The notes under the pieces: generated by a model
What the model was told of the DNA's origin: nothing
The model's database searches: none
Seen by the model: only the letters and a program-made list of their open reading frames with translations
Program-made: the position numbers and the translations under genes
Shown: positions 3,341-63,899 of the stretch, in pieces
Numbering within the stretch: position 1 is the first letter of the stretch
Layout: every line of letters starts with the position of its first letter
NCBI RefSeq assembly: GCF_024372745.1
Contig: NZ_VOTZ01000004.1
Coordinates: 1 to 64,000, forward strand
Direction: 5' to 3'
DNA length: 64,000 bases
Source: Methanocalculus taiwanensis
GTDB lineage: Archaea; Halobacteriota; Methanomicrobia; Methanomicrobiales; Methanocorpusculaceae

Positions 3341-4240
3341 ATGAATCATGAGACATACATTGGCTGGTCCTCAGTCCCAAGAGGAGCGAATGTTCGACTT
3401 GCTGACTTTCATACCGGGTTGGCAAACAATCTGAGAAGTGACAAAAAGGGGAAGAAAGCAGTAAAAAAGTGGGCAATGGAGTCACTGAATGAGAACAGGG
3501 AGGCTCTATCAGCAGCACATGATCTCTTCTGGACCGATAAACGCTATTCTCTTCTGATCATCTTACAGGGAATGGATACAGCAGGAAAAGACGGAGCAAT
3601 AAAACACGTAATGTCGGGCTTAAACCCGCAGGGCTGCCGGGTGGAGAGTTTTGGTATCCCGACAAGAAATGAGCAAAACTACCCATTCCTATGGAGATTC
3701 TGGAGATCACTACCCCGAAAAGGGGAGATCGGCATCTTTAACCGCTCATATTATGAAGATGTGCTTGTACCCAAAATACACCCGGAAATACTCAACACGC
3801 AACGGCTTCCTCCCGGATATGGCAGTAAATCCTTCTGGAATGCACGGTTTGAGGATATAAATTCATTTGAGAAGCAACTTGTCAATAATGGAGTTATCAT
3901 TTTAAAATTTTTCCTTCACATCTCATTTGAAGAACAAAAAAAAAGGCTTATATCACGCCTTAAAACCGAAAGTAAACAGTGGAAATTCTCTTCATCAGAC
4001 CTCTCAGAGCGTGACCACTGGAAACAGTACCAGGCAGCATACGAAGAGATCTTCTCAAGAACCAGCACTGACTATGCACCATGGTATATCATTCCCGCGG
4101 ACTACAAATGGGTTGCCAGGATGATGATTGCAGATCTTATCGTGTTGAGCATCCGGCAGCTGGATCTCAGATACCCTGAGATTTCCGACATACAAAAAAT
4201 GGAGATTGAAGCAGCACTTGAAAAGCTTCAGAATACATAG
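3341..4240 (+). CDS. Polyphosphate kinase 2 family protein, first of a tandem pair
   Basis: 299 residues. PPK2 enzymes transfer phosphate between polyphosphate and nucleotides in the cytoplasm. Seen here: Walker A GMDTAGKDG (about residues 77-85), the family block GIFNRSYYEDVLVPKIHPE (about 130-150), and the basic lid segment RLKTESKQWKFSSSDLSER. Length is normal for a one-domain PPK2. A GTG at 3338 is in frame directly ahead, but the ATG at 3341 is preferred. The next gene is a close paralogue 119 bp downstream. Whether it makes NDP/NTP from polyphosphate or acts on AMP cannot be read from these motifs. Confidence 0.9.
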   Translation: MNHETYIGWSSVPRGANVRLADFHTGLANNLRSDKKGKKAVKKWAMESLNENREALSAAHDLFWTDKRYSLLIILQGMDTAGKDGAIKHVMSGLNPQGCRVESFGIPTRNEQNYPFLWRFWRSLPRKGEIGIFNRSYYEDVLVPKIHPEILNTQRLPPGYGSKSFWNARFEDINSFEKQLVNNGVIILKFFLHISFEEQKKRLISRLKTESKQWKFSSSDLSERDHWKQYQAAYEEIFSRTSTDYAPWYIIPADYKWVARMMIADLIVLSIRQLDLRYPEISDIQKMEIEAALEKLQNT

Positions 4241-4318
4241 AAACCATCAAAGAATGGTAGACTGATCCCTCGGATCAACAGATCGAAAAAGTACTATTAA
4301 CAGAGGATGATAAGAGAC

Positions 4319-6168: not shown

Positions 6169-9100
6169 TCAGGCGGCTTTCTGCCTGCACCGCCGTATCT
6201 CCTCCATATACGCACGCTCGGGCTGTATTTCATAGGCTTTTTCAAATGAGTGGAGGGCCTCCTCGAATCGTTCAAGCGCTACAAGAGCCCTTCCCATTGC
6301 ATACCAGAGCCTGTGACGATCAGGTGCTGCATCAAGTGCATGTTTTAGGGAAGAGAGCGCCTCTTCGTTCCTGCCCAGTCGCAGGAGGGCATTGGCATGT
6401 GACTGCCAGGCAGCATGAAATCCTCGATCCACCCGTAAAGCCTCCTCACTGGATTCCATAGCCTCATGATATCTGCCAAGCTGGTGGAGCAGTATGGCAC
6501 GGGCGTTCCATACTTGTGCAGATACAGGATTGAACGCAATGGATCGATCAAATGAGAAGACGGCATCTTCAAACCTGCCAAGACTACCGAGAATGGTTCC
6601 CCGTATATACCATGCACCTCCGTCCTCGGGTATATAATTGAGGGCTTTGTCAATGGATCGCAATGCCTCCTGGTATTTTAATAGACGATGAAGCGCAGTG
6701 CCACGGAGCACCCAGGCATCCGCAAAGTTCTCATCAAGGGCAAGTGCCTTATCTGCCGAAGAAAGTGCGGCAGGGAACCTGCCAAGCCGCCCCTGGATAA
6801 CGCCCCGGAGATACCATGCCTTAGCATGATCTTTCCGCCCGGAGAGAGACCGCTCAATTGAGAATGATGCATCGTCATATCTCCCCATCTTGACAAGCAG
6901 ACGGGAATGCCCATACCACCCATCTGGATCATCAGGATGCTCCTCAAGCCATAAAGTACAATAGGTAAGCGCATCTGCAAACCTGCCAACATGGTACAAT
7001 GCCGATGCATATCCACGGGCAAGCTCGAGCGTTTCAGGATGATCCCGGATTGCGTTATCAAAACAGGCTACTGCCTCTTCAAATCTGCCAAGATGAGAGA
7101 GCGCTGTTCCGCACATGCTGAGGAGCCGGGGATCATCCGGAGAGTGATGAAGTGCCCGCTTAAATGAGGGTAAGGCTTCATTATACCTGCCAAGACGGCA
7201 GAGGAGAAAACCCATCTCTGCCCATCCCCCGGCTCTTTCTGTTGAAACCGCCTTATCATAGGCAGCCAGGGCGTCTTCAAGCCGATCGGCTTGTACCAGA
7301 AGATCCGCATAGAGAAGCAAAATTTCAGGATCATGCGGCATTTCATTAATCAGCGGCTGGATAACATCAAGGGCTTCCATCTCCCTTCCAACTGCGATCA
7401 GCGAGGTTGAGAGAGTATACAGGGCTTCTGGATCAAGAGGTGAGTCCTCCTGTGCTGAGAGCAGAAGGGAAATGGCTTCGTCATACCGCTCGAGGCGGGA
7501 GAGGAGAAGGCCACGAGGAATGACAGTCTCTTCGGGTACCCGCTCATAGGCGAGAAGCGCCTCTTGTGGACGGGAGAGAGACTCGAGCACCAAACCGAGG
7601 ATCTGCCAGACTGCCGGATCATTTGGGAGTTCAAGAGCAAGGTGTGAGACGACGGTATGTGCCTCTTCAAAACGGGAGAGAGCGATCAGCGCATGGGCAC
7701 TCCCAAACAGTGAGATGGTATCAGATGAATCCTCCCGGAGTGCAGATTCAAAGGATAGGAGTGCATCCTCATACCGGCCAAGGGCAGAGAGAACCTCACC
7801 CCGTTTTCGCAGGAGGGAGGGCACGGGATCATCACCTGTGATGAGCCTGTTATAGAGAGAGAGAGCTTCATCATACCTCTTCAGGAGCAAGAGCGTATCT
7901 GCAACCTTGGCAAGAAGGATCTGATCATCCGGATATGCCTGAAGAGCACGCTCGTATACCCCATATGCCTCATCTGGTTTCCAAACCTCCAGAAGAGCGT
8001 CTCCATACAGTTCCAGAAGAGAGGGATCGTCGGGTGAGAGACGCAGAGCCTCTTCATATGCGGCTATTGCATCCTCATACCGGCGAGAGCGGAAGCGGCA
8101 GTCCCCGATCTTCTTCCAGATATCCAGGTTATCATCAGATTCCTCCATGGAGGCGAGATATAACCCTTCAGCCTCGTCAAATCGGCCTGTTCTGAAGAGG
8201 GCTTCGGCATGGAGCCGGTGTTGGAAGGAATCAGGCTCATGCACCTTATCAAACGCTGCCGCTGCTTCTTCATATCTCTCAAGAAGAGAGAGAGCTACGG
8301 CACGCTCACCTTTCAGGTTTTCATCATCCTGTTTTAACGCAAGACCCCGTTCAAATACAGCGAGAGCCTCATCATACCTCTTCAGTTGAGAGAAGACTCT
8401 CCCGCAGAGGTGAAGGAGATACGGATCATCCGGGAATAACTGAAGCGCATTTTGGGCATTTGACAGCGCCTCATCATGCCTGCCTAATTTGCAGAGAACC
8501 ACACACATCGCTCCCCAGCCATCCGGATTCTCAGGCGATATCCCCCTCTGGTAAGCAGAGAGGGCATCATCCAGCTTATTCAGGTTCGCCAGTACATCTG
8601 CATAACGTAGGTGTATCGCGGGATCATCTGGCACCTGTTCGATCAGTAGTCTGAGAACAGGAAGGGCTTCAGTCTCCCTTCCATCTTCAATCAGGGATTT
8701 CGAAAGGGCAGAGAGTATGGCTGGATCGTTGGTTGGATCATTCATCGCAGAGAGCAGCAGGGGAATGGCTTCATCATGCCGACCGAGACGGGAGAGGAGA
8801 AGACCTCGCAAAATGACCGTCTCTTCAGGGATCCGCTCATAAGCCGAAAGCCCCTCTTCCAGCCGAAAGAGGTGCTCAAGCACCAAACCAAGCTGCTGCC
8901 AGATTGCCGGATCGTCCGGAATTTCAAGAGCAAGGTGCGAGAGAATTGCATGTGCCTCCTCAAACCGGGAGAGGGCGATCAAAGCATGGGCATTTCCTCT
9001 CAATGAAGGGATATCGGAAGGGTTCTCCCCAAGAGCAGATGCAAATGATAGCTGCGCATCTGAATAATGGCCGAGTGCTAAGAGTACCTCGCCCCGTTTT

Positions 9101-12100
9101 CGCAGGAGAGCAGGGTCATGAGTGCCGCCCTCCACCAGCCGATCATAGAAGGGGAGGGCATCCTGCTCTCTGTTCAGGAGCAGAAGCGTATCGGCGACTC
9201 TGGAAAGTGCGACCCGATCATCAGGGAAGAGCTCAAGCGCACGCTCATACATACCGCATGCCTCATCTGTTTTTTGAACCGCCAGCAGAGCATCCCCATA
9301 TTGCACCAGAAGAGACGGATCCTTTGGAGAAAGAGGCATAGCCTCTTTATACGCGTTTATAGCATCCGCATACCTATGGGAACGGAGGCGGCAGTCCCCG
9401 ATCTTCTTCCAGATATGAAAAGTATCATCATATCCTCCAAGGGAGGCAAGATAGGATGCTTCAGCCTCGTCATACCAGCCGGTTTCGAAGAGCGCTTCGG
9501 CATGGAGCAGATGCAGATCGGAATCAAACTCCAAAACGTGTTTAAACGCGGCCACAGCATCTTCATATCTCTTCAGAAGAGAGAGCATTCTGGCTCGCTC
9601 TCTCCTGAGGATCACATTATCCGGACTTACTTCAAGACCTTGCTCAATCGCAGAGAGAGCCTCCTCGTTCCGCCCGAGATGAGATAAGATCTCCCCCTGC
9701 CTGGAAAAGTGATCGACGTTTTCAGGTTCAAGCCATATCAGATGCTCAACCGAGATAAGAGCCTCTTCATTTTGTCCAAGAAAGAGAAGGGCCCCTGCAT
9801 GATCTGACCAGACAGATGAATCATCCGGGTATGCAGGAAGTGAATGCCCTAATGATTCCACCGCCTCTTCATAGCGTTCGAGAGCAAGCAGAGCACGCCC
9901 GTGATCACGCCAGACTGAAGGATCGGCTGCATCCAGCGAGATCGCATGGGCAAATGATTCCACCGCCTCATCATACCGCTCAAGAGCAAGCAGAGCACGC
10001 CCGTTATCGCGCCAGACTGAAGGATCAGTGGCATCCGGAGAGATGGCACGAACAAATGATTCCACCGCCTCTTCATACCGCTCAAGAGCAAGCAGGGCTC
10101 TCCCATAATCCTGCCAGATAGAAGGATCATCGGCGTTATAAGAGAGCAGATGCTTAATTGATGAAACGGCATCTTCATATTGCTCAAAGGAGAGGAGGAC
10201 ATAACTTCGTATCTTCCAGTATGAGGGATCATCCGGGGGATCCTCCAGAAGGCGATCTAATGCATGGAGAGATTGTTCATATCTGCCAAGGCGGTGATTG
10301 AGAAGAGCTGACTCAAAGAGGGCATCTCTATTATCCGGGTCAAAGGCGAGCAGCTCATCAAGGGATTTCGCAGCTTCCTCATTAAGCAGCAGTTCTTTCT
10401 GGGCACGCACACGGTTCAGCCAGACATCAGGATTACTGCTCCCTGACCTGATGATCTCATCATAGGCAGAGAGCGCCTCCCGATATCGTTCAAGCTGAAG
10501 GAGGAGCGGAGCAAGCCGCAGAAGAGCAGATTGATCTGTGGGCCGTATGCTGTGGGCATGTTCATATGATTCAAGAGCCTCCGTCTGATGCCCGAGCATC
10601 TCCAATGCGGCCCCATAGTCGACCAGAACAGGATAGTTATCCGGATCTTCCTCCAGTATCCGTTTAAACGCATCCTTTGCCTCATCATATCGGCCGGATT
10701 CCATCAGGAGCCGACCCATGCCCAGATTTGCCCTTGGATCTGAGGGCCGTAGTGAAACAGTCTTCCGGAGAGATTCAAGCGACCCATCGGCACGTCCAAG
10801 CTGTATAAGGGCAAGCGCTCGAAGAGACCAGTAATCCGGGTCGTCATCACGGATTCTTACCGCCTGATCAAGATAGTGAAGGGAATCATGATGCCTTCCA
10901 ATGGAAAGCGCCGCAGATCCGCTGTTCAGCCAGGCTTCATAATAATCGGGCTTAATGTCGATGACCTTCATATAGGCGGCTATAGCTTCCTCGTGACGTC
11001 CCTGTATCTGGAGAAGAGATGCCTTTGAAAACCAGCATTCAGCATCATCCGGATTAATCCCAAGCGAAAGATCAAGGGATCGGACTGCCTCATCGTATCT
11101 TCCAAGATTCCAGAGGCAGATACCATGCTTCTTCCAGATGGTTCCCGTTTGTGGATGTACAGTTTCATTTCGATCTCCCGCTTCATCCTGGAAGAGAGAG
11201 AGCGCATGCTCATAACATTCAATTGCATCATCATATTGCCAGAGTTTATCAAGAGCAATACCTTTCAGGAACCAGACAGCGGGATCATCAGGATTGATAA
11301 AGAGTGATTGCTCATAGGAGAGGAGTGCATCGTCATACCGGGTGAGCCTGCATAGGATGGCACCTTTCATCCCCCATATCTCTGCGAGGCTGAAGGCAGA
11401 ACCTGATATATCGTCTCCATTCCGTCTGAGCGCTTCATCAAATGATTGAAGAGCCTCTTCAAGCCGGAAGAGCCGATAAAGGCATACGCCTTTTAAAAAC
11501 CATATTTTCCGGGAGGCACCGTCCAGTGCAAGAGCTAAATCGAAGATGGTGATTGCTTCATCATACTGCCTCGTCGATAAAAGATGCTCTCCCATCGAGA
11601 TCAGATCATCGAGGTCATCCTGGTGAGAGGACTGCTGTAAAATGCCGATTGCCCGTTTAGTTTGTCCAAGTCCAAGCAGGGCAAAGGCGTACCTGCGCCG
11701 GGTATCCCTGTCATCAGGGCGGATCCTGATGGCATGTTCAAAAGAGTTTGCAGCTTCCTGAAATTCCGAAATGTTGAGAGAAGCGGTTCCTTTGCCTTTC
11801 CATGCAAGGAAATTCTCCGGCTCGATCAATAGAGCTGTCTGGAACGAGCGGATGGCACCTCGCAGATACCACAAACCTGCATCATCAGATTGAAGCGAAT
11901 GGATTGCACCCGGATTATACGTATTCCCGGATTCAGACAGATGGATGAGGATCATGCCACGCCGACACCATATTTCGGCATTACCGGAATCAAGTGCAGT
12001 CATTTTATCAACAAGATCAAGTGCTTCCTTATACCTCCCCGAGGAAAATAGCTCTTGTACAAGTTTTGTAAGATCCGGGAGAGCCGAAGGGCTGAATGTA

Positions 12101-54058: not shown

Positions 54059-54619
54059 ATGAGTCTTAAGAGAAAAGAGGACGGCTTCACCGGCCTTGAG
54101 GCTGCGATTGTCTTAATCGCATTCATCGTGGTCGCTGCAGTCTTCTCATATGTGATGCTCGGAGCCGGGTTCTTCACAACCCAGAAGAGCCAGGAGACGG
54201 TCTACCATGCTGTCGGCCAGTCTGCCACCAACCTTGAGGTATCGGGACCTGTGGTTCTGTTATCGAACTCAGCTGGAACAGCCTATGATTGGGCCAACTT
54301 TACTCTCATCATGGCAGCCGGGGGAAGCCCGGTCGACATGTCGAAAGTAGTGTACTCTATTTCGACGAAAGACCAGCTCAAAGAACTTGCGTACAGTGAT
54401 GTTTCATCTGCAATGCGATGGCATAATGCCAATGGTAACAATCTTCTCGAGCGTGGTGAGATCCTTGAGATAGGCATAAGCAATGCGAATGGAGCAAGCT
54501 TTATAAATCCAAATCAGCAGTTTACCATTGAGGTGAAACCAGCAGTTGGCTCAGCACTTCCGATCACACGCACCGCTCCACTCTCGATTGGAGTCAGCAC
54601 ATACTATGAGGTCTACTGA
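54059..54619 (+). CDS. arlB: Archaellin 1 (archaellum filament subunit)
   Basis: 186 residues. A class III (type IV pilin-like) signal peptide, MSLKRKEDG, is cut by the prearchaellin peptidase before FTGLEAAIVLIAFIVVAAVFSYVML, the hydrophobic helix that forms the filament core. The C-terminal ~130 residues are the beta-rich surface domain, with NxS/T sites suited for N-glycosylation (for example NFT). AAGGTGAT lies 6 nt ahead of the ATG. A second archaellin follows 11 bp later and shares the signal region almost exactly. Confidence 0.95.
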   Translation: MSLKRKEDGFTGLEAAIVLIAFIVVAAVFSYVMLGAGFFTTQKSQETVYHAVGQSATNLEVSGPVVLLSNSAGTAYDWANFTLIMAAGGSPVDMSKVVYSISTKDQLKELAYSDVSSAMRWHNANGNNLLERGEILEIGISNANGASFINPNQQFTIEVKPAVGSALPITRTAPLSIGVSTYYEVY

Positions 54620-54630
54620 AGGTGATCATG

Positions 54631-55203
54631 ATGAAAAAACAGAATGAAAACGGATTTACCGGTCTTGAAGCCGCAATTGTCCTGATCGCGTTCGTCGTCG
54701 TCGCCGCGGTATTCTCGTATGTGATGCTCGGTGCAGGCTTCTTCACGTCACAGAAGGCACAGGAAGTTGTCCATACCGGCATGGGACAGGCCGCCTCAAG
54801 CATCGAAGTACATGGTATCGTCTATGGATATGGAAATGGAACCGGAGACAATCAGGCTGGCATCGATACAGTTACTGCCACGATTGCATTAACCTCTGGT
54901 ATGCAAGCGATGAACATCTCCGCGATGCAGGTCACCTATACCGACCCGACGAACAGGGAGTTCCTGACATATACAAGTGGTAATGCAGCAGGCGGAGGTT
55001 GGAACATAAGTAAATTCTTTAACAACATAACGGCAGACACTGTGCTTGAACCAAACGAGAAGTTTACACTGACATTCATGCCAACAACTGCCCCTGGAAA
55101 CAACACGAGGTTCACCCTTGCGCTGCAGCCGGAACAGGGAGCCCTGACAACCATTGTCAGAAGTACTCCGGCAGCGATCTACCCGGTGAATGCACTGGTG
55201 TAA
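54631..55203 (+). CDS. arlB: Archaellin 2
   Basis: 190 residues. Signal MKKQNENG, then FTGLEAAIVLIAFVVVAAVFSYVMLGAGFFTSQKAQE, nearly identical to archaellin 1; the outer domain is unrelated at the residue level. Several N-glycosylation sequons occur (NISAM, NISKF, NNITAD). GGTGAT ahead favours the ATG at 54631; an ATG at 54628 and a GTG at 54622 are in frame. A T-run after the stop suggests that many transcripts end here, so filament subunits are made in excess over motor proteins. Confidence 0.95.
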   Translation: MKKQNENGFTGLEAAIVLIAFVVVAAVFSYVMLGAGFFTSQKAQEVVHTGMGQAASSIEVHGIVYGYGNGTGDNQAGIDTVTATIALTSGMQAMNISAMQVTYTDPTNREFLTYTSGNAAGGGWNISKFFNNITADTVLEPNEKFTLTFMPTTAPGNNTRFTLALQPEQGALTTIVRSTPAAIYPVNALV

Positions 55204-55220
55204 AACCTTCCATCAATCCC

Positions 55221-55226
55221 TTTTTT
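55221..55226 (+). terminator. T-run after the archaellin genes
   Basis: CCCTTTTTTAAC 18 nt after the archaellin 2 stop. Together with the separate TATA box ahead of arlD it splits the locus into an archaellin unit and a motor unit. Confidence 0.45.
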
Positions 55227-55289
55227 AACACAACTGAGTAATTAATCCCATTATTCCACCCCTTTATCGTTTTTGCATCCAAAACCATT

Positions 55290-55300
55290 ATATATCACAC
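55290..55300 (+). promoter_or_regulatory. TATA box for the arlD-arlJ motor genes
   Basis: TTATATATCA centred ~25 nt before ATG 55319, so the transcript is probably leaderless. A TACATA at 55311-55316 lies between box and start codon. Confidence 0.5.
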
Positions 55301-55318
55301 AAATAATATACATACCAT

Positions 55319-56185
55319 ATGGCAGTAAACCAATCTCAGGTCGATAACATTCTGGCGACCGCCTCCGCCGACGATCCCGAGGTTAAACTGCAGAACCTGG
55401 AACAGGAAGTTGACCTCATGAAGAAATCGATCAAGAAGCTTTTGATCGATATACGTGAGCGTCTGAACGAAGCTGATAATCCACTGACAGTCATTGCACA
55501 GGGAGGCGAAATAGTTGCAGGACTCACTCCTGCCGATGCCGCACGAATCCAGGAGATTGAACAGAAAACCCAGGAGGATGCTGCCCGTATCCAGGAGCTC
55601 GAAGAGAAGGTGGAAGAACTCCTCTCCCGCCCTGCCCAGGAGATTGAGAAGCCTCGTTCTGGCAGGCAGCAGAAGTATCCCATTGAGGAGGAAGAGGAGC
55701 CGATTCCTGAGATGCCGCCTCAGTATGCACTCCCACAGGTACCGACAGTCGATCCCACTACCCGGTTTCCTGCAAATCTCCCGATGAAGAAGGAAGAAGA
55801 TGGAAAACTCTGCCTTCACAAGGTGTACCAGCTCTTTAACTGGACCAAAGCCGCTATCACCAAGTACGGCCATGACCGGCTGGATATCATGCTCGATTCA
55901 TACCAGTCCATCGGGTATATCAAAAAAGAGGCAGCAGACGAGGTAAAAGAGATCGCCCGCATCATGCCAGCCTCACTTGGGGAAGAGCATGAAGTGGGTG
56001 CGGACGAGTTTGTATCAGAACTCTATGTACTAAACCAGATACTGGATCCCGAGGACACCTCTCTTGACCGGGACATGATCACTGTCATGATGGAGCGGGA
56101 CACGAAGAAAGGATTTTCAAAGCGGCCAAAATTACCAAAGGAGGAACCTGGCGAAGAGTGGGCACATCTGATCGATAAGATATAA
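55319..56185 (+). CDS. arlD: Archaellum accessory protein ArlD/ArlCE family
   Basis: 288 residues. The N-terminal ~125 residues are charged and predicted coiled coil (VKLQNLEQEVDLMKKSIKKLL, then IQEIEQKTQEDAARIQELEEKVEELL). A proline-rich linker follows, and the C-terminal ~120 residues form the FlaD/E domain (LYQLFNWTKAAI-like segment, YGHDRLDIMLDSYQSIGYI, ADEVKEIARIMP). ArlC/D/E form the cytoplasmic ring linking motor to chemotaxis proteins such as CheF. Only one such gene is present, so it may do the work of all three. Confidence 0.85.
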   Translation: MAVNQSQVDNILATASADDPEVKLQNLEQEVDLMKKSIKKLLIDIRERLNEADNPLTVIAQGGEIVAGLTPADAARIQEIEQKTQEDAARIQELEEKVEELLSRPAQEIEKPRSGRQQKYPIEEEEEPIPEMPPQYALPQVPTVDPTTRFPANLPMKKEEDGKLCLHKVYQLFNWTKAAITKYGHDRLDIMLDSYQSIGYIKKEAADEVKEIARIMPASLGEEHEVGADEFVSELYVLNQILDPEDTSLDRDMITVMMERDTKKGFSKRPKLPKEEPGEEWAHLIDKI

Positions 56186-56236
56186 CACTATACAAACCAT
56201 ACTATACCAGTGAAGAGATCATATGGATGAGACATC

Positions 56237-56740
56237 ATGAGTTCAGAAACCTTCGTCACAGCCATATTTTTAATCACTGCCATTATAGCAGCAGGTGTCC
56301 TCGTCAACGCAGTTTTTCCCTCTATTTACCGTGCATCCGAGACCTTTGTCTCAAGCTCACAGGAGATGGACGATCGGATGCGAACGGACGTAGCGATTGT
56401 GAATACGGTCATGAACGAAGATGACGATATTGCATATATCTGGATAAAAAATACCGGAGTAAACCCGATAGGCGAAGGTCTGATCCCCCGGTTTGATATT
56501 TATCTTGGAAAGACAGGTGAGATCAGACGGATGGAATATGAAGGGGAAGGAGACAATCCCAGTCAGGGTATGTGGAAATACCATCTCTATGACGATAATT
56601 CAAACGATCTCTGGGATCGGGGAGAGACTCTTGAGATCGTAGCACAGAGTAGCATCAGCGTTAGTGAAGGGGACAGAATAACCTTCCAGATCGTCCTCCC
56701 GAACGGGGTGCGGAGAAATATTGACTTCTCGGTCGTCTAG
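56237..56740 (+). CDS. arlG: Archaellum stator-type protein ArlG
   Basis: 167 residues. One N-terminal helix (SSETFVTAIFLITAIIAAGVLVNAVF) without a cleavable class III signal is followed by a pseudo-periplasmic beta-sandwich (AIVNTVMNEDDDIAYIWIKNTGVNPIGEGLIPRFDIYL). It matches ArlG more than ArlF by its SETFVTAIFLI start. ArlG caps ArlF in the stator that contacts the S-layer. It ends 12 bp before arlF. Confidence 0.8.
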   Translation: MSSETFVTAIFLITAIIAAGVLVNAVFPSIYRASETFVSSSQEMDDRMRTDVAIVNTVMNEDDDIAYIWIKNTGVNPIGEGLIPRFDIYLGKTGEIRRMEYEGEGDNPSQGMWKYHLYDDNSNDLWDRGETLEIVAQSSISVSEGDRITFQIVLPNGVRRNIDFSVV

Positions 56741-56752
56741 GAGAGATGCGAC

Positions 56753-57214
56753 ATGGGATTTGCAACCATAATAGGAGCGATTGTAGGGGTGTTCCTTCTT
56801 CTTGTTGTCGCATACCTTCTGATCGGAGCCACTCTGATCACAGCTGAACTCGTGATGACAGCACAACGGGATATGACCGAAGTACAGACGGACAGGACGG
56901 GAACCTCGATTGCAATCGAAGGGCATCAGATAGTGGACAATACAACTCTCTATATCCTCGTAAAAAATGACGGGAACACGGTGATCAGGAACCCAAAACA
57001 GATGGATCTATTCATCGCAACAGAAGATGGATCCCAGGAAAGAAAAAGCTGGGAACCGACCGATCCGGTTCTACTATCCCCGGATCTCATCAATCCGGGT
57101 TTCTTCGACCCAGGCGAGACTCTGAATATGAGCGTGAGTATTGATGCCCTCTCTCCTCCAACCTGGGTGAAGGTGGCAACACCAGCTGGCACCGCCGCAT
57201 CCGCATATCTCTGA
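56753..57214 (+). CDS. arlF: Archaellum stator-type protein ArlF
   Basis: 153 residues. The N-terminus MGFATIIGAIVGVFLLLVVAYLLIGATL is the ArlF-type membrane helix, followed by a small beta-sandwich domain (GHQIVDNTTLYILVKNDGNTVIRN, GETLNMSVSID). ArlF binds S-layer protein and anchors the motor. The N-terminal anchor is not followed by a peptidase site, unlike archaellins. It is in the same operon order as arlG and 9 bp ahead of arlH. Confidence 0.8.
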   Translation: MGFATIIGAIVGVFLLLVVAYLLIGATLITAELVMTAQRDMTEVQTDRTGTSIAIEGHQIVDNTTLYILVKNDGNTVIRNPKQMDLFIATEDGSQERKSWEPTDPVLLSPDLINPGFFDPGETLNMSVSIDALSPPTWVKVATPAGTAASAYL

Positions 57215-57223
57215 GGGACTATC

Positions 57224-57985
57224 ATGGCAAAGTATGATGATGATGATTCCGGTAACTCATACCTGACCGATTTAATCGGAGGTTCAGACAAGGAGATCCT
57301 CTCGACAGGCAACCCCGAGATTGACAGGAAGATCGCAGACGGACTCCCCCTCTACTCGATGACCTTAATCGAAGGCGAGAACGACACCGGCAAGAGCGTC
57401 ATCACCCAGCAGATCATGTGGGGTGCTATGAAGAACTCCTTTACTGTCGATCTCTTCACAACAGAGAATACTGTGAAGAGTTTTCTGGCACAGATGGAAT
57501 CGATGAGCCTTGATATCTCAGATTACTTTGCCTGGGGATATATACGGGTATTCCCCCTCCATGTAGTTGGTTTTGACTGGGATGAAAGCGACATGCAGGG
57601 AATCCTTGGAAGACTGGTGAACCATATCAGAAAAAGTAAAGCTGATGTAATCATCATCGATTCACTGACACTCTTCTCAGAATATGCTTCCACAGACGTG
57701 GTCATGACTTTCTTCACTAACTGTAAAACCCTCGTAGACAATGGAAAGACCATCCTGATCACGCTCCACACCTATGCATTTGAAGAAGACTCCCTTGTAC
57801 GCATCAGATCCACCTGCGATGCCCACCTGGTGATGAAGAAATCACTCATCGGTGACAAATATGTAATGGTGATGGAGGTTGGAAAAGTGCGGGGTGCACG
57901 GAAGACAACCGGAAACCTGGTTTCCTTTGAGGTCCATCCCGGGTATGGTATGAAGATCATTCCGATGTCGGTAGCAAAAGTCTAG
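57224..57985 (+). CDS. arlH: Archaellum motor regulator ArlH (KaiC-like ATPase)
   Basis: 253 residues. Walker A GENDTGKS at 51-58 and Walker B in ADVIIIDSLTLFSEYAS (~140-155); RecA/KaiC fold. ArlH docks on ArlI and, through its nucleotide and phosphorylation state, is thought to control motor assembly. The acidic N-terminus MAKYDDDDSGN is species-specific. It lies 9 bp after arlF and 3 bp before arlI. Confidence 0.93.
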   Translation: MAKYDDDDSGNSYLTDLIGGSDKEILSTGNPEIDRKIADGLPLYSMTLIEGENDTGKSVITQQIMWGAMKNSFTVDLFTTENTVKSFLAQMESMSLDISDYFAWGYIRVFPLHVVGFDWDESDMQGILGRLVNHIRKSKADVIIIDSLTLFSEYASTDVVMTFFTNCKTLVDNGKTILITLHTYAFEEDSLVRIRSTCDAHLVMKKSLIGDKYVMVMEVGKVRGARKTTGNLVSFEVHPGYGMKIIPMSVAKV

Positions 57986-57988
57986 ACC

Positions 57989-59863
57989 ATGGCATCCTCG
58001 CTCTCAATCGACGTAACACTCCCCTTTCAGCCACAAACAGCCGATGTCGAGGAGATCTATGAAGGAGATCTCGAGTCATCAGCGCTGTACCGGATGCTTC
58101 CGGAGAATGCACGGGAATATGTCCGCGAGAGCCCCCATCTTCTTGAATATCTCCTTATTTTCCCAGTTGACATCTATGGCATTCCACTTTTCCTCTCGGA
58201 ACTCAAAGGCGATCTCAAAAAGATGGAGAGTCCGAATGTTATCTACCCTGTCGGTAATGAAACATTCGTCCATATACTCCCCGATCCAAACGATGTACGA
58301 CAGTATTACATCCCGATAGAGCCCTCGTTCCTCCATAGCGTCGGTTACCTCAACGCAGCAATCGAGTGTAAACTCGTTGACCTCCTCGATGCGCTTGATT
58401 ATGATCCCGTAACCGAAAAGGAGCGAGCTGATCTTCTCAAAAAACTCTTAAAAGAGATCACATTCATCAAAACATCGCAGGATACCGCACTCATCGAAAG
58501 CGCAGAGAGTGAACTGCCAGCGTCGATCAAGGATCGGATCATGAACTTCCTCCAGAAGGATCTCAGTGATACAAAGAAAGACTCAGTTGCGCGTAAATTC
58601 CCCGGAGTCCCACAAACTGCGGATGGTAAAGTAATTGTAACTCCTGCACAATATACCGCACTGGAATACGTCCTCATACGCGATAAAGTCGATATGGGGG
58701 TTCTAAAACCCTTTCTCCAGGACAGTTATATCGAAGATATCACCTGCAATGGCGTCGGGCCGATCTTCATAGAGCATAAGATCTTCAAAGGCTTGAAATC
58801 TGTCATCGAATTTAAAAAATCCGACGAACTTGACCTCTTTGTACTAAAAATGGCTGAGCGGATCAAAAATCCTATCACCTACAAGAGCCCGATTGTGGAT
58901 GCCACTCTCCTTGACGGCTCACGTATCAACATCGTCTATGGAACCGAGATCAGCAGGCACGGGAGCAACTTCACCATCCGAAAGGCGATGGGCGAACCCC
59001 TCTCGATCTTAAATATTATTGACAGCGGCGGTATGGACTACATGTGTGCGGCATATCTCTGGATTTTGATCGAATATGGTATGTCCCTCTTCGTCTCCGG
59101 AGAGACGGCGTCAGGCAAGACCACCACACTCAATGCAATAACCGCATTTCTGCCGCCAGAGAATAAAATCGTCACAATTGAGGATACCCCGGAGCTGAAC
59201 ATTCCCCACAGGAACTGGACACGCGAGGTTGCCAAAGGAAAAGGCAAAGGCGAGGGTGAAGGTGGCGAAGTGACAATGTTTGACCTCCTTCGTGCTGCAC
59301 TCAGGCAGAGGCCAAACCAGATCCTCGTCGGAGAGATCCGTGGTGTTGAGGGCTCAGTTGCCTTTGGTGCGATGCAGACCGGGCACCCTGTGATGAGTAC
59401 CTTCCACGCATCAAGTGTAGAGAAACTGATCCAGCGTTTAACTGGCGATCCCATCCTCATTCCAAAGACCTTTGTGGACAGTTTAAACCTTGTTGTCATC
59501 CAGAGTGCTGTGAAACGGCCAACCGGCGAGACGGTGAGGCGGGTTCTGTCCATATCCGAGCTTGTCGGATATGATCCTGAAAGCCAGGGATTCTCCTTTG
59601 TCGAGGCATTTTCATGGGAGCCTGTCACTGATACGCACACCTTTAACGCGAAAGGAATCAGTTTCCTGCTCGAGTACAAAGTGGCAACCCTGCTTGGAAT
59701 TCCTGAACGGAGGAAAGCCGATATTTATCTTGAGATTGAGAAACGTGCCAAAATATTAGAGAAACTTCATGAGGCAGGATTCACCAGGTACTATGATCTC
59801 TTCCATATGCTCACAAAAGTCAGAAAGCAGGGCCTCCTGAAGATCGATATCGGGGGGGACTGA
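57989..59863 (+). CDS. arlI: Archaellum motor ATPase ArlI
   Basis: 624 residues, GspE-type secretion ATPase. Walker A is SGETASGKTT (K377), the Asp box is IVTIEDTPELNIPH, Walker B is NQILVGEIRGVEGSVAFGAMQTGHP, and the His box is STFHAS. The N-terminal ~200 residues are longer and more acidic than in methanococcal ArlI. It hydrolyses ATP for filament export and for rotation. A charged glycine-rich loop (AKGKGKGEGEGGE, near residues 415-427) follows the Asp box. Confidence 0.95.
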   Translation: MASSLSIDVTLPFQPQTADVEEIYEGDLESSALYRMLPENAREYVRESPHLLEYLLIFPVDIYGIPLFLSELKGDLKKMESPNVIYPVGNETFVHILPDPNDVRQYYIPIEPSFLHSVGYLNAAIECKLVDLLDALDYDPVTEKERADLLKKLLKEITFIKTSQDTALIESAESELPASIKDRIMNFLQKDLSDTKKDSVARKFPGVPQTADGKVIVTPAQYTALEYVLIRDKVDMGVLKPFLQDSYIEDITCNGVGPIFIEHKIFKGLKSVIEFKKSDELDLFVLKMAERIKNPITYKSPIVDATLLDGSRINIVYGTEISRHGSNFTIRKAMGEPLSILNIIDSGGMDYMCAAYLWILIEYGMSLFVSGETASGKTTTLNAITAFLPPENKIVTIEDTPELNIPHRNWTREVAKGKGKGEGEGGEVTMFDLLRAALRQRPNQILVGEIRGVEGSVAFGAMQTGHPVMSTFHASSVEKLIQRLTGDPILIPKTFVDSLNLVVIQSAVKRPTGETVRRVLSISELVGYDPESQGFSFVEAFSWEPVTDTHTFNAKGISFLLEYKVATLLGIPERRKADIYLEIEKRAKILEKLHEAGFTRYYDLFHMLTKVRKQGLLKIDIGGD

Positions 59864-59867
59864 AGGG

Positions 59868-61478
59868 ATGTTTGAGGATGTTGTTGAGCGGCTGAGGGAG
59901 AATAATGATGGAAAGCTCCCCTTCGAAGATCTCTTCCAAAGCATATACAAACGCATCACCAGGGTTTTTGATGACCGGAGGATGGCATCTGATATCCTTC
60001 TTATGGTCACATATATGGATTCGCTTGCCATTGCAAAGGCAACACGCCCCGAGATTTTTGCCAGTACTTCTGAAAAGAAGGAGTACGCATCGGCAAAAGC
60101 GATCAAGAAGATTGAATTCTTTGTCAAGCGGTTTGGGTACAGTTATGTACAGGCAATAACAATCGTGGGTGAAAGGGTTGAAAATGCTCTCTTAAAGACT
60201 CTGCTGAATAGATTTGGCAATGCAATGGAGTCCGGGGTGCCCGACATCGATTTCCTTGAGGGCGAACTCTCATCCTCCATGGAGATCTTCAGGAACAACC
60301 AGGAAGCCGGATATGAACTCCTGAAGAAGTGGGCGGACGCATACATCGCTATGCTCCTCTCCTCGGTTGTGATCGCTATTACGCTCATGGTGTCAGTTGC
60401 AATCTATACGCCAGGTTCTGTTGAGGAGACTCTTGGTATTACCTATGTGATTGTGATCCTGATTTCAGCATTTGGTATTGGAACAATGTTTCAGACGGTT
60501 CCAACCGATGATCGCGTCTATAAGTCTGAAGACTGGTCCTCAAAAGAGCAGGGAATGCTGAAAAAACTTGAGAAGATCATTATACCACTCACAATCATCG
60601 CATGGCTTCTTGCCTGGGTAATCGGCATCCCTGCGGGCATTGTCTTTATGCTTGTAGGATTTATGGTTGCGCCGCTGGCGATCATCGCATATATTGACAA
60701 CAGCAATGTCATCGCCCGGGACGAGGAATTCCCAAACTTCATACGTGGAGTTGGTGCAATCATGGGAGGAAAATCAGTGACACTATCAACGGCACTTGCC
60801 CAGGTAGATAAGAAATCAATGCCCACACTCTCGCCGCTGCTCCTCTCAGTCTACTCCAAACTGAACCTGGGGCTGGATGAAGAGCTCTCATGGAAACGGT
60901 TTATCGGCGAGTGCGGAAGTAATTTTATCTATAAGTACTTCAGTATCTTCCGTGACACCGCAAAGATGGGAGGGGATGCAAAGAAGATCGGAACAGTCGT
61001 TGCTGACTCGATGCTTGAGCAGGTGCTGATGAGGAAGCGGCGGGAACTGGCAAGTATGGGTTTTGTGGTTCTCTTAATACCGATGCATGCAGCAATGTGC
61101 GCCATCTTCATCGCCCTCTATAATATTCTATCCACCCTCTCAAAATCAATAACGAGTGTAATGACTAGCTTTGAGGCGGCATCGGCAGCAGCGTCGGGGG
61201 ATGCAATAGGGGGTGCAATGGGTGGAGGGATGATTGGCATGTTCATTGATTTTCCGGATGCCCTGGTCGGTGCCTATGTCGTCCAGATCCTGGTGCTCAT
61301 CTGTTTTGCAAATGTAATCGTCGGGCAGCTGGCAGTGGGTGGCGATCGGAGCATGGTATATCCATTTCTTTCAATAATGTTTTTAGTCACCGGAATGCTC
61401 TTTCTTGCAATTCCACCGGTTGTTGATTTATTCTTCAGCATGGAAGGGCTGGTGTCTACAGGAGGAACTGTTGTATGA
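59868..61478 (+). CDS. arlJ: Archaellum membrane platform protein ArlJ
   Basis: 536 residues. Two GspF-like cytoplasmic helical domains (DDRRMASDILLMVTYMDSLAIAKATRPEIF, then NFIRGVGAIMGGKSVTLSTALAQVDKKS) are separated by clusters of membrane helices near 165-205, 240-275, 395-425 and 470-525. The KYFSIFRDTAKMGGDAKKIGTVVADSM segment is the conserved contact region with ArlI. It is the only integral platform of the motor. Its stop overlaps the next start (ATGA). Confidence 0.93.
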   Translation: MFEDVVERLRENNDGKLPFEDLFQSIYKRITRVFDDRRMASDILLMVTYMDSLAIAKATRPEIFASTSEKKEYASAKAIKKIEFFVKRFGYSYVQAITIVGERVENALLKTLLNRFGNAMESGVPDIDFLEGELSSSMEIFRNNQEAGYELLKKWADAYIAMLLSSVVIAITLMVSVAIYTPGSVEETLGITYVIVILISAFGIGTMFQTVPTDDRVYKSEDWSSKEQGMLKKLEKIIIPLTIIAWLLAWVIGIPAGIVFMLVGFMVAPLAIIAYIDNSNVIARDEEFPNFIRGVGAIMGGKSVTLSTALAQVDKKSMPTLSPLLLSVYSKLNLGLDEELSWKRFIGECGSNFIYKYFSIFRDTAKMGGDAKKIGTVVADSMLEQVLMRKRRELASMGFVVLLIPMHAAMCAIFIALYNILSTLSKSITSVMTSFEAASAAASGDAIGGAMGGGMIGMFIDFPDALVGAYVVQILVLICFANVIVGQLAVGGDRSMVYPFLSIMFLVTGMLFLAIPPVVDLFFSMEGLVSTGGTVV

Positions 61479-62614
61479 AGGATTCATTCAGGCGTATTCT
61501 GCTCTTTTTTGGCATTATATTAATAGGATTGATACTCATCTTCATCGATCTGCCAATCCTCTATCTTATTCTGGTTGTATTCCTCTTTGGGGTAATACTC
61601 CTCTTCATTACAGGATCACTCTCCCTGAAAAATCTAAGAAGAGAAAAAGAGGATACGATAAAAGAAGAAAAACCAGCAGGACCTACATTTGGCGAGAGGT
61701 TTGCAGAAAAAGCACCCACCTTTTATAATCTCTACAAGAAGCTCACCGGTGGAAGCCGAAAGCCAAAAGAGAAGAAAGAGAAAACAAAGAAGGAGAAAGG
61801 ATCTGGGCTTTTCAGCAGGAAGGAGAAAGGATCCGGGCTTTTCAGCAGGAAGGAGAAGGAGCCTGCACAAACCGCCCCACCAGCCATTGCCGCCCCCGCC
61901 CCCGAAGCACCTGACGACGAGCTCGATGAAGAAGATCTCTTCGGCGACATCAACCTGGATGAACTGGATGATGAGGGGCTTGATGATTTTGGAGGAGACG
62001 AAGTAGTCCTCGATATGGGGCAGGATGATGCAGGCTACATGGCAGATGATGTCGCATCGATACTTGCCCAGGCAGGAGATCTGGATGACGATCTGGTGGA
62101 GGAGGGATTTGATCAGCCGCTGGACACTCCATTGGACGATTCATTTGATGGCTCTTTTGATCAGGAGATTCTCACAGGCAGTGATGATCTCGATTCAATC
62201 GATCTTGATGAGATTGAAATGGATGAGGAACCGGAACTTCCGGATGACCTGGTGGATCTGGATGAGATGCCCGATCCATTCGCAGATATTCCTGTTGAGG
62301 AAGAAAAGAGCCGGGATAAAAAGAAAAAGGATGACTTCGGGTTTGGCGCAGGTGCTGAGGCCATCAGTTCGAATGTCGGATTCCTTGACGCAAAAGAGAC
62401 AGAGAAGAAGAGTTCCTTCTTCTCCAAATCCAGCGGTGGAACGGGCTCAGAGGGCGATCTTCTCAGTGAGCTGAAGAGCAGCGCAAAAAATGTCAGAAAA
62501 AAACAGGATTTAAGCCTTGTCCGTGATTTAAAGGATGCCGAGGTTTCACCGGAAGAACTGGAAGAAGAGCTATCAAATCTCCTGACCATCCTTGGAGGGA
62601 AAAAAGATGAATAA
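61475..62614 (+). CDS. Membrane-anchored acidic protein between motor and chemotaxis genes, unrecognised
   Basis: 379 residues. Two N-terminal helices (ILLFFGIILIGLILIFIDLP and ILYLILVVFLFGVILLFITG) are followed by a basic stretch with a duplicated KEKGSGLFSR unit. A ~170-residue very acidic, low-complexity region comes next (DDELDEEDLFGDINLDELDD and similar). A short conserved-looking C-terminus ends the protein (DLSLVRDLKDAEVSPEELEEELSNLL). The start overlaps the arlJ stop by 4 bp, so it is translated with the motor. No known family is recognised. Its position suggests a link between the motor platform and CheF/CheY, which is inference. Confidence 0.8.
   Translation: MKDSFRRILLFFGIILIGLILIFIDLPILYLILVVFLFGVILLFITGSLSLKNLRREKEDTIKEEKPAGPTFGERFAEKAPTFYNLYKKLTGGSRKPKEKKEKTKKEKGSGLFSRKEKGSGLFSRKEKEPAQTAPPAIAAPAPEAPDDELDEEDLFGDINLDELDDEGLDDFGGDEVVLDMGQDDAGYMADDVASILAQAGDLDDDLVEEGFDQPLDTPLDDSFDGSFDQEILTGSDDLDSIDLDEIEMDEEPELPDDLVDLDEMPDPFADIPVEEEKSRDKKKKDDFGFGAGAEAISSNVGFLDAKETEKKSSFFSKSSGGTGSEGDLLSELKSSAKNVRKKQDLSLVRDLKDAEVSPEELEEELSNLLTILGGKKDE
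61790..61849 (+). repeat. 30-bp direct repeat in the acidic protein gene
   Basis: Two adjacent copies (61790-61819, 61820-61849) differing at one base (T/C near position 14 of the unit), with the first 8 bp of a third copy after them. Encodes KEKGSGLFSR twice. Confidence 0.9.
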
Positions 62615-62658: not shown

Positions 62659-63465
62659 ATGGTTAGCGCACCAGTAAAAATCCAGCATAATGATGAATGG
62701 ATCAATCTGAAGATTCAAATAGATGATGAAAAAATTGCCATTCCATCACCGGTTAATGCAACGATTCCGCTCAGGCATATACTCGATCTGGAGGAGAAGA
62801 AGAAGAATACTCTGACTATTGTCAAAAAAGACGGGAAAACCATCGATCTCGTCTCTGTTGACAAGGTGCTTTTTGTACTGAAGCATAAGATACTGATGAA
62901 ATGCAGCGGATATCGGCTGATGGTTCAGTTTATTTCCCCTGCAATACGCGGGGGAGTACTTGTAACAAACGCTACCTGGGAGAAAGGTGCAATCATCGTC
63001 CTCAAAACAGGCATCTGGTGCATTACCCAGAACAAACAGATCTGCATTCCTATCTCTGATGTAACAGGTATTGAGATGACAAAGAGAGAGGTAAACGATA
63101 AGCCGACCGATGTTGTCAAGATCGATCACCTTGAGCACCACGATGTCGTCTCCAGTTTCATCCTCACCCAGGTCTCAACGCTTGAGATACTCCATAATTT
63201 CCTCCAGGAAGCAACAGCGGGCATAAAGATGGAGGGAACCGAACTTGGACCAATGGATCAGCAGATCGCCATGCTCGTGTATTCTGGCATGGACTCCTCG
63301 TCAATCCAGAATATGCTCCAGATACAATTTAAAGAGATTGATCGCGTCTATGAGAAGTTAATCAACCTTAATATGGCTGAAGTCAAAGAGATCAGAAGAG
63401 AGGTTCAGCTCACTGCAAAAGGTGTCCGGTATATCACCGATGCAACAAAAGCTGGTGTGAATTGA
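62659..63465 (+). CDS. cheF: CheF, archaeal chemotaxis adaptor
   Basis: 268 residues. The N-terminal part (VSAPVKIQHNDEWINLKIQ, DGKTIDLVSVDKVLFVLK, GGVLVTNATWEKGAIIV) is the CheF/DUF439 beta-rich domain. The C-terminus (QIAMLVYSGMDSSSIQNML, VREI-like helices ending in QLTAKGVRYI) is a winged helix-like unit. CheF joins phosphorylated CheY to the ArlC/D/E ring so that rotation can be switched. The ATG follows the acidic protein gene by 44 bp. Confidence 0.88.
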   Translation: MVSAPVKIQHNDEWINLKIQIDDEKIAIPSPVNATIPLRHILDLEEKKKNTLTIVKKDGKTIDLVSVDKVLFVLKHKILMKCSGYRLMVQFISPAIRGGVLVTNATWEKGAIIVLKTGIWCITQNKQICIPISDVTGIEMTKREVNDKPTDVVKIDHLEHHDVVSSFILTQVSTLEILHNFLQEATAGIKMEGTELGPMDQQIAMLVYSGMDSSSIQNMLQIQFKEIDRVYEKLINLNMAEVKEIRREVQLTAKGVRYITDATKAGVN

Positions 63466-63536: not shown

Positions 63537-63899
63537 ATGGGTAGAATATTGATTGTTGATGATACATTGTTTATGAGAACTCTTCTCAAAAACATTCTTT
63601 TCTCTGGTGGCCATGAGATCGTTGGCGAGGCAGGAGACGGGACAGAGGCTGTTGAAAAATACCAGGCACTGAAACCCGATCTGGTCACAATGGACGTTGT
63701 GATGCCAAAGATGAATGGAATCGAGGCACTGAAGGAGATTAAAAAGATGGATCCCGGTGCAAAAGTCGTCATGTGTACGGCTGTCGGCCAGGAACAGATG
63801 GTGAAGCTCGCCATAAAAAGTGGTGCACGCGGATATGTGGTGAAACCTTTCCAGGCCCCAAAAGTGCTTGATGAAGTGAAGAACGTCCTGGCATCATAG
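63537..63899 (+). CDS. cheY: Chemotaxis response regulator CheY
   Basis: 120 residues, one receiver domain. Acid pocket in LIVDDT (residues 8-9), phospho-acceptor D53 in DLVTMDVVMPK, switch threonine in VMCTAV (~80) and K103 in YVVKPFQAPK. It carries the phosphate from CheA to CheF and the archaellum ring. It lies just after cheF and 3 bp before cheB. Confidence 0.95.
   Translation: MGRILIVDDTLFMRTLLKNILFSGGHEIVGEAGDGTEAVEKYQALKPDLVTMDVVMPKMNGIEALKEIKKMDPGAKVVMCTAVGQEQMVKLAIKSGARGYVVKPFQAPKVLDEVKNVLAS

Follow-up and report, generated by a model that had tools for sequence, protein, structure and literature searches.

A candidate membrane-anchored archaellum motor protein encoded directly after arlJ in Methanomicrobiales

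The DNA analysed here (the window) is a stretch of 64,000 nucleotides from Methanocalculus taiwanensis, positions 1 to 64,000 of contig NZ_VOTZ01000004.1. It carries a full arl operon, comprising two archaellins, arlCDE, arlF, arlG, arlH, arlI and arlJ, followed by an open reading frame of 379 codons (here the window ORF) and then by cheF and cheY (Table 1). arlI was named from its sequence and position, without Pfam, and the Pfam match of arlG is below cut-off. The initial annotation, made from the sequence alone, described the window ORF as coupled to arlJ and ahead of cheF. Both points hold: the stop codon of arlJ and the start codon of the window ORF share an ATGA.

Table 1 Features of the arl locus and of the protein encoded by the window ORF, in window coordinates.
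Feature	Position	Strand	Basis
Upstream arl operon (gene starts: arlB 54059, arlB 54622, arlCDE 55319, arlF 56237, arlG 56753, arlH 57224, arlI 57989)	54059..59863	+	PF01917, PF04659, PF06745 matches
arlJ, membrane platform	59868..61478	+	PF00482 match below cut-off
ATGA overlap, arlJ stop/window ORF start	61475..61478	+	sequence
Window ORF (379 aa), encoding a candidate membrane-anchored component of the archaellum motor	61475..62614	+	ORF, profile matches
N-terminal membrane hairpin, residues 3-45	61481..61609	+	hydropathy, AlphaFold2
Basic linker, residues 53-132, net +11	61631..61870	+	charge count
Acidic stretch, predicted disordered, residues 133-300, net -55	61871..62374	+	charge, AlphaFold2
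Acidic motif SDDLDSIDLDEIEMD (LDxIDLDE), residues 236-250	62180..62224	+	motif scoring in order loci
C-terminal helical hairpin, residues 325-374, with SLVRDLKD...ELEEEL	62447..62596	+	conservation, AlphaFold2
cheF	62659..63465	+	PF04283
cheY	63537..63899	+	PF00072

The protein is predicted to have a helical hairpin at each end, with a long charged region between them. KD-19 hydropathy exceeds 1.6 solely in segments starting at residues 3-36, the highest value elsewhere being 0.76. AlphaFold2 (13 sequences) predicts helices at residues 3-23 and 28-45, then disorder, and then helices at 325-354 and 359-374. The two membrane helices originally proposed are supported by both methods, and the positive-inside rule predicts that both ends of the hairpin are cytoplasmic. 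The scores of the model are low (mean pLDDT 53.3, pTM 0.18), with confidence confined to the terminal helices, and therefore only these two helical islands (3-45 and 325-374) are meaningful. The long acidic disordered region of the initial annotation is found again in both the charge count and the AlphaFold2 disorder, and its conserved-looking C-terminal helix is seen as a predicted pair of helices in which R350 is invariant across 39 sequences. The family consensus here is DDLL..SL-RDLK...ELE.EL. Conservation within the family falls on precisely two parts, the membrane segment and the paired C-terminal helices; the former is a hairpin in Methanomicrobiales and a single helix in other families. 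A basic repeat had also been noted. It is present, as a 30-bp tandem duplication of 2.3 copies inside the basic linker (61789-61857), but it is not conserved: among six genomes of the genus compared it is private to the source genome, and the two nearest relatives have a single copy of the unit.

Searches of Pfam and NCBIfam gave no family above cut-off for the window ORF, nor for 39 of its relatives, which returned scattered weak matches only. These matches, such as LapA_dom in 3/39 relatives, probably reflect the membrane part. PHROGs gave no match to the window ORF, and a PDB sequence search gave no relative. A profile of the C-terminus run against the PDB produced four rows (E 0.11-0.39, 21-31 positions matched each), which are taken as chance. 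The C-terminus was also compared with ArlCDE, ArlH, CheF and other arl proteins, and has profile kinship to none of them; homology therefore points to no partner. In the comparison with ArlC/D/E, PF04659 is absent from the window ORF and the profile probability is at most 0.5%. The gene is not named in any paper found by literature searches. The archaellum-gene section of PMC4858521 gives seven components, none like the window ORF, and the supplementary arCOG tables of that paper may list the family; excerpts of PMC12488501 and PMC2666748 do not mention it. The window ORF apparently represents a conserved family of the archaellum operon that is as yet unnamed.

ArlJ is present in 110/150 genomes of Methanomicrobiales. 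The loci used here are the window and 108 others that were fetched, giving 109; G086 was excluded because its contig stops inside arlJ. In all 109 readable loci the family gene lies directly 3' of arlJ. Thirty-nine of these sequences served to build profiles for the N- and C-termini. The N-terminal profile matches next to arlJ in 108/109 loci, and in the remaining one (L104) it matches in a frame that had been assigned to arlJ. For the C-terminal profile there are matches in 106/109, the other three loci reaching a contig end. Since 39 of the tested sequences went into the profiles, the remainder of each locus served as a control: there the C-terminal profile gave no matches and the N-terminal profile matched only in L104, so that the matches beside arlJ are not due to chance. 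In 104/107 loci the start of the gene is no more than 25 bp past the arlJ stop, and in 32 the two overlap.

The same association is seen at the level of genomes. In a draw of 392 genomes from the phylum, the family profile matched 68/68 ArlJ-positive and 0/15 ArlJ-negative genomes of Methanomicrobiales. The family diverges fast, and single-query searches consequently miss many members: the window protein alone matched in 60/150 genomes of the order and missed 50 of the 110 that have ArlJ, so that a first look would falsely suggest a patchy presence. The mean distance for the joined ends of the family is 0.63, compared to 0.42 for ArlJ. Family distances correlate with those of ArlJ (r 0.86) and ArlI (r 0.88), but the partial r is 0.16-0.24, and common descent accounts for most of the mirror-tree correlation. 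The initial annotation suggested a new archaellum component, and named orthologues unlinked to archaellum genes, or present in non-motile species, as what would count against it. Such cases were looked for, and no family match (60/150 genomes with the single query, 87/392 with the family profile) falls in an ArlJ-negative genome. Together with the linkage to arlJ, this co-occurrence strongly supports the suggestion.

Beyond Methanomicrobiales the family profile adds 19 genomes, from families f9, f12 and f14. Twenty loci were read from these genomes, and in 19 the match is a same-strand gene beside arlJ; in L148 and L151 about 650 bp separate the two. A stray C-terminal fragment occurs in L140 (contig 8 of G371, 8986-9258), and G371 also has the gene at arlJ. 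A further 35 loci outside the order were picked by ArlJ alone. The gene is found in 5/5 loci of f9, 8/8 first-type (arl1) loci of f8 (one of which, L168, was called by eye only), 3/3 of f12 and 1/1 of f14. These families are presumably Archaeoglobaceae (f9), Methanosarcinaceae (f8) and Methanocellaceae (f14), and "haloarchaeal-like", used below, is an equally presumptive name. In one Archaeoglobaceae-like locus (L159 of G277, a genome without CheF) the gene has moved to a position between arlH and arlI (3604-4260). A profile-profile comparison shows that C-termini from the order and from the other families are clearly related (E 2.3e-13, probability 98%).

Other lineages differ. The gene is found in 0/8 haloarchaeal-like loci, and is therefore dispensable for some ArlCDE motors; one of these loci, L181, has a CheF-like gene, identified by eye, after arlJ. 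In second-type (arl2) loci of f8 (5 loci), and in f10 (4) and f24 (1), arlJ is followed instead by a gene for a soluble protein. Its profile probability against the family C-terminus is 18.5% for the second-type Methanosarcinaceae-like set and 2.6% for f10/f24, values too low to show kinship, and the copy in L171 matches the C-terminal profile at 9.7e-6. These genes (L169, L171, L172, L189, L192, L176-L178, L185 and L186) encode acidic proteins whose C-terminus looks like that of the family but which lack a membrane part. CheF was found in 0/7 of their genomes examined in which the membrane-type copy was not seen. In the f10 loci L176, L177, L185 and L186 a response-regulator-like protein of about 280-560 residues takes the place of cheF downstream, perhaps as a different input to the motor.

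The initial annotation suggested that the protein might tether CheF or the ArlD ring to the membrane, and asked whether the gene always lies between arlJ and cheF. The latter nearly holds: cheF (PF04283) adjoins the family gene in 97/99 CheF-positive loci of the order. The exceptions are L101, in which cheF is 650 bp away, and L113, which has two cheF copies, the first of them adjoining; the copies of L113 (G035) form a tandem pair 3' of the family gene. It fails in seven loci that keep the gene with no cheF after it (G002, G011, G020, G026, G038, G061 and G133). Neither CheF nor CheA was found in these seven genomes, of which G011 is a single contig and four are at least 91% complete; all seven fall in only two families (f3 and f6) and are not independent. 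Outside the order, CheF is absent from 8/36 genomes that carry the family gene, and where a cheF was seen in Archaeoglobaceae-like loci it lies about 1-6 kb past the family gene. The gene is thus kept by seven genomes of the order and eight outside it that have no CheF. Since it persists without CheF and CheA, tethering of CheF cannot be its core function, and this was ruled out as the main role.

The acidic motif was considered as a possible binding site for CheF. In a leave-one-family-out scoring, LDxIDLDE reaches z>3 in 86/93 CheF-positive but only 1/7 CheF-negative loci of the order, whereas the C-terminal hairpin does so in 93/93 and 7/7, and both ends of the protein persist in the CheF-less loci whose motif is lost. 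Seven loci with contig ends, an insertion or frameshifts (L037, L050, L054, L039, L098, L099 and L101) and two that were uncalled (L047 and L104) do not enter the alignment of 100 sequences or the motif counts. Within the order the case for a binding site looks good, but the link to CheF is not borne out elsewhere. Six genomes of genus g46 in f9 (G300, G228, G256, G386, G363 and G316) have CheF, and in the members read the motif was judged by eye to be absent; G186, G178 and G235 lack CheF and retain a stretch resembling the motif (as read in L164 and L191). These results bear on the reading in which CheF (and CheY-P) would be kept at the motor by the acidic arm, with chemotactic switching as the main job of the protein. 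The adjoining cheF and the selective loss of the motif within the order speak for it, although the losses of CheF there are few (families f3 and f6). Given that the gene survives without CheF in both sets of genomes, and that motif and CheF part company outside the order, we regard this reading as unlikely. CheF and the window ORF are neighbours in most loci of the order, but their sequences differ, and CheF is missing from genomes that retain the family gene.

Bacterial FliM and FliY carry an N-terminal peptide that binds CheY. By analogy, the short acidic motif carried by the flexible arm of the window ORF protein could conceivably be a recruiting peptide. Beyond the order, however, the presence of the motif does not follow that of CheF.

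The retention of the gene after the loss of CheF and CheA indicates that it belongs to the motor rather than to chemotaxis. We propose that the window ORF encodes a dedicated component of the archaellum motor, a membrane tether or stator bracket with a docking helix pair, in the manner of an ArlX counterpart, and give this reading a slightly better than even chance. The N-terminal hairpin would fix the protein in the cytoplasmic membrane beside ArlJ, and the long flexible charged arm would extend into the cytoplasm. The C-terminal helical hairpin would dock on a part of the motor, most likely the ring of ArlCDE or ArlH around ArlI. These are put forward as the likeliest partners because two reviews place ArlCDE and ArlH as a ring around ArlI and describe ArlCDE as having no membrane anchor (PMC8978795, PMC12024892). 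Tethering of ArlCDE or of the ArlH ring is a possible role for the protein. In chemotactic lineages the acidic arm might perhaps also help to recruit CheF or CheY.

The crenarchaeal scaffold ArlX (FlaX) offers the closest description: it is membrane-anchored, has a cytoplasmic part and is encoded in the arl operon (PMC8978795, PMC12024892). The window ORF protein, likened to it by description, has a predicted transmembrane anchor and cytoplasmic part and is also encoded in an arl operon. It differs in that it coexists with ArlCDE rather than replacing it, arlCDE (PF04659) being in the same operon, and in its place after arlJ, its membrane hairpin (in this order) and its long acidic disordered arm. 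With the ArlC/D/E (FlaC/D/E) switch ring it shares the operon and a proposed link between motor and chemotaxis, but ArlCDE is soluble, separately encoded here (PF04659), and without profile similarity to it.

The translational coupling to arlJ and the strict co-occurrence with ArlJ would also suit an assembly or export factor, that is, a chaperone-like membrane partner of ArlJ/ArlI polymerisation or of ArlJ insertion that stays outside the rotating motor. A tether seems the better match for a long disordered arm with a conserved pair of helices at its far end. Moreover, if G001, whose copy is interrupted (see below), is Methanoplanus endosymbiosus, as we infer, the record "flagella reported" for that species (PMC4149034) would mean that the gene is not needed for assembly. 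This alternative is accordingly rather improbable. A polar organiser, linking archaella to the polar cap or the chemoreceptor array and not to the motor ring, would fit a protein predicted to be membrane-bound, flexible and acidic, and an anchoring role has been proposed for polar caps (PMC8978795), but the gene is retained after the loss of chemotaxis and we consider this very unlikely.

The membrane tether can be taken one step further, more tentatively. The protein may be the missing anchor of the ArlCDE/ArlH ring in non-haloarchaeal Halobacteriota, a torque-bearing bracket required for rotation and not for building the filament. Reviews treat as unsettled which parts of the motor stay still (PMC8978795, PMC12024892), and the protein described here, conserved, membrane-bound by prediction and linked to ArlJ in Methanomicrobiales as well as in four other families, offers a concrete candidate for a static bracket. 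If it bears torque, an interrupted gene should leave archaella that are built but do not turn. G001 may provide such a case, as a natural insertion mutant and a candidate natural test of the role of the gene. In this genome (L039) the family gene is split by an ORF of 388 residues on the opposite strand, named by eye as transposase-like; the insertion lies about 1.4-2.6 kb past the arlJ stop, and arlJ and cheF are intact. Methanoplanus limicola is listed as "motile, flagella" (PMC4149034) and its strain M3 is reported to be weakly motile; G001 may be M. endosymbiosus, and the comparison of the two species is a lead only. In G031, which belongs to the same genus as G001, the family gene is intact.
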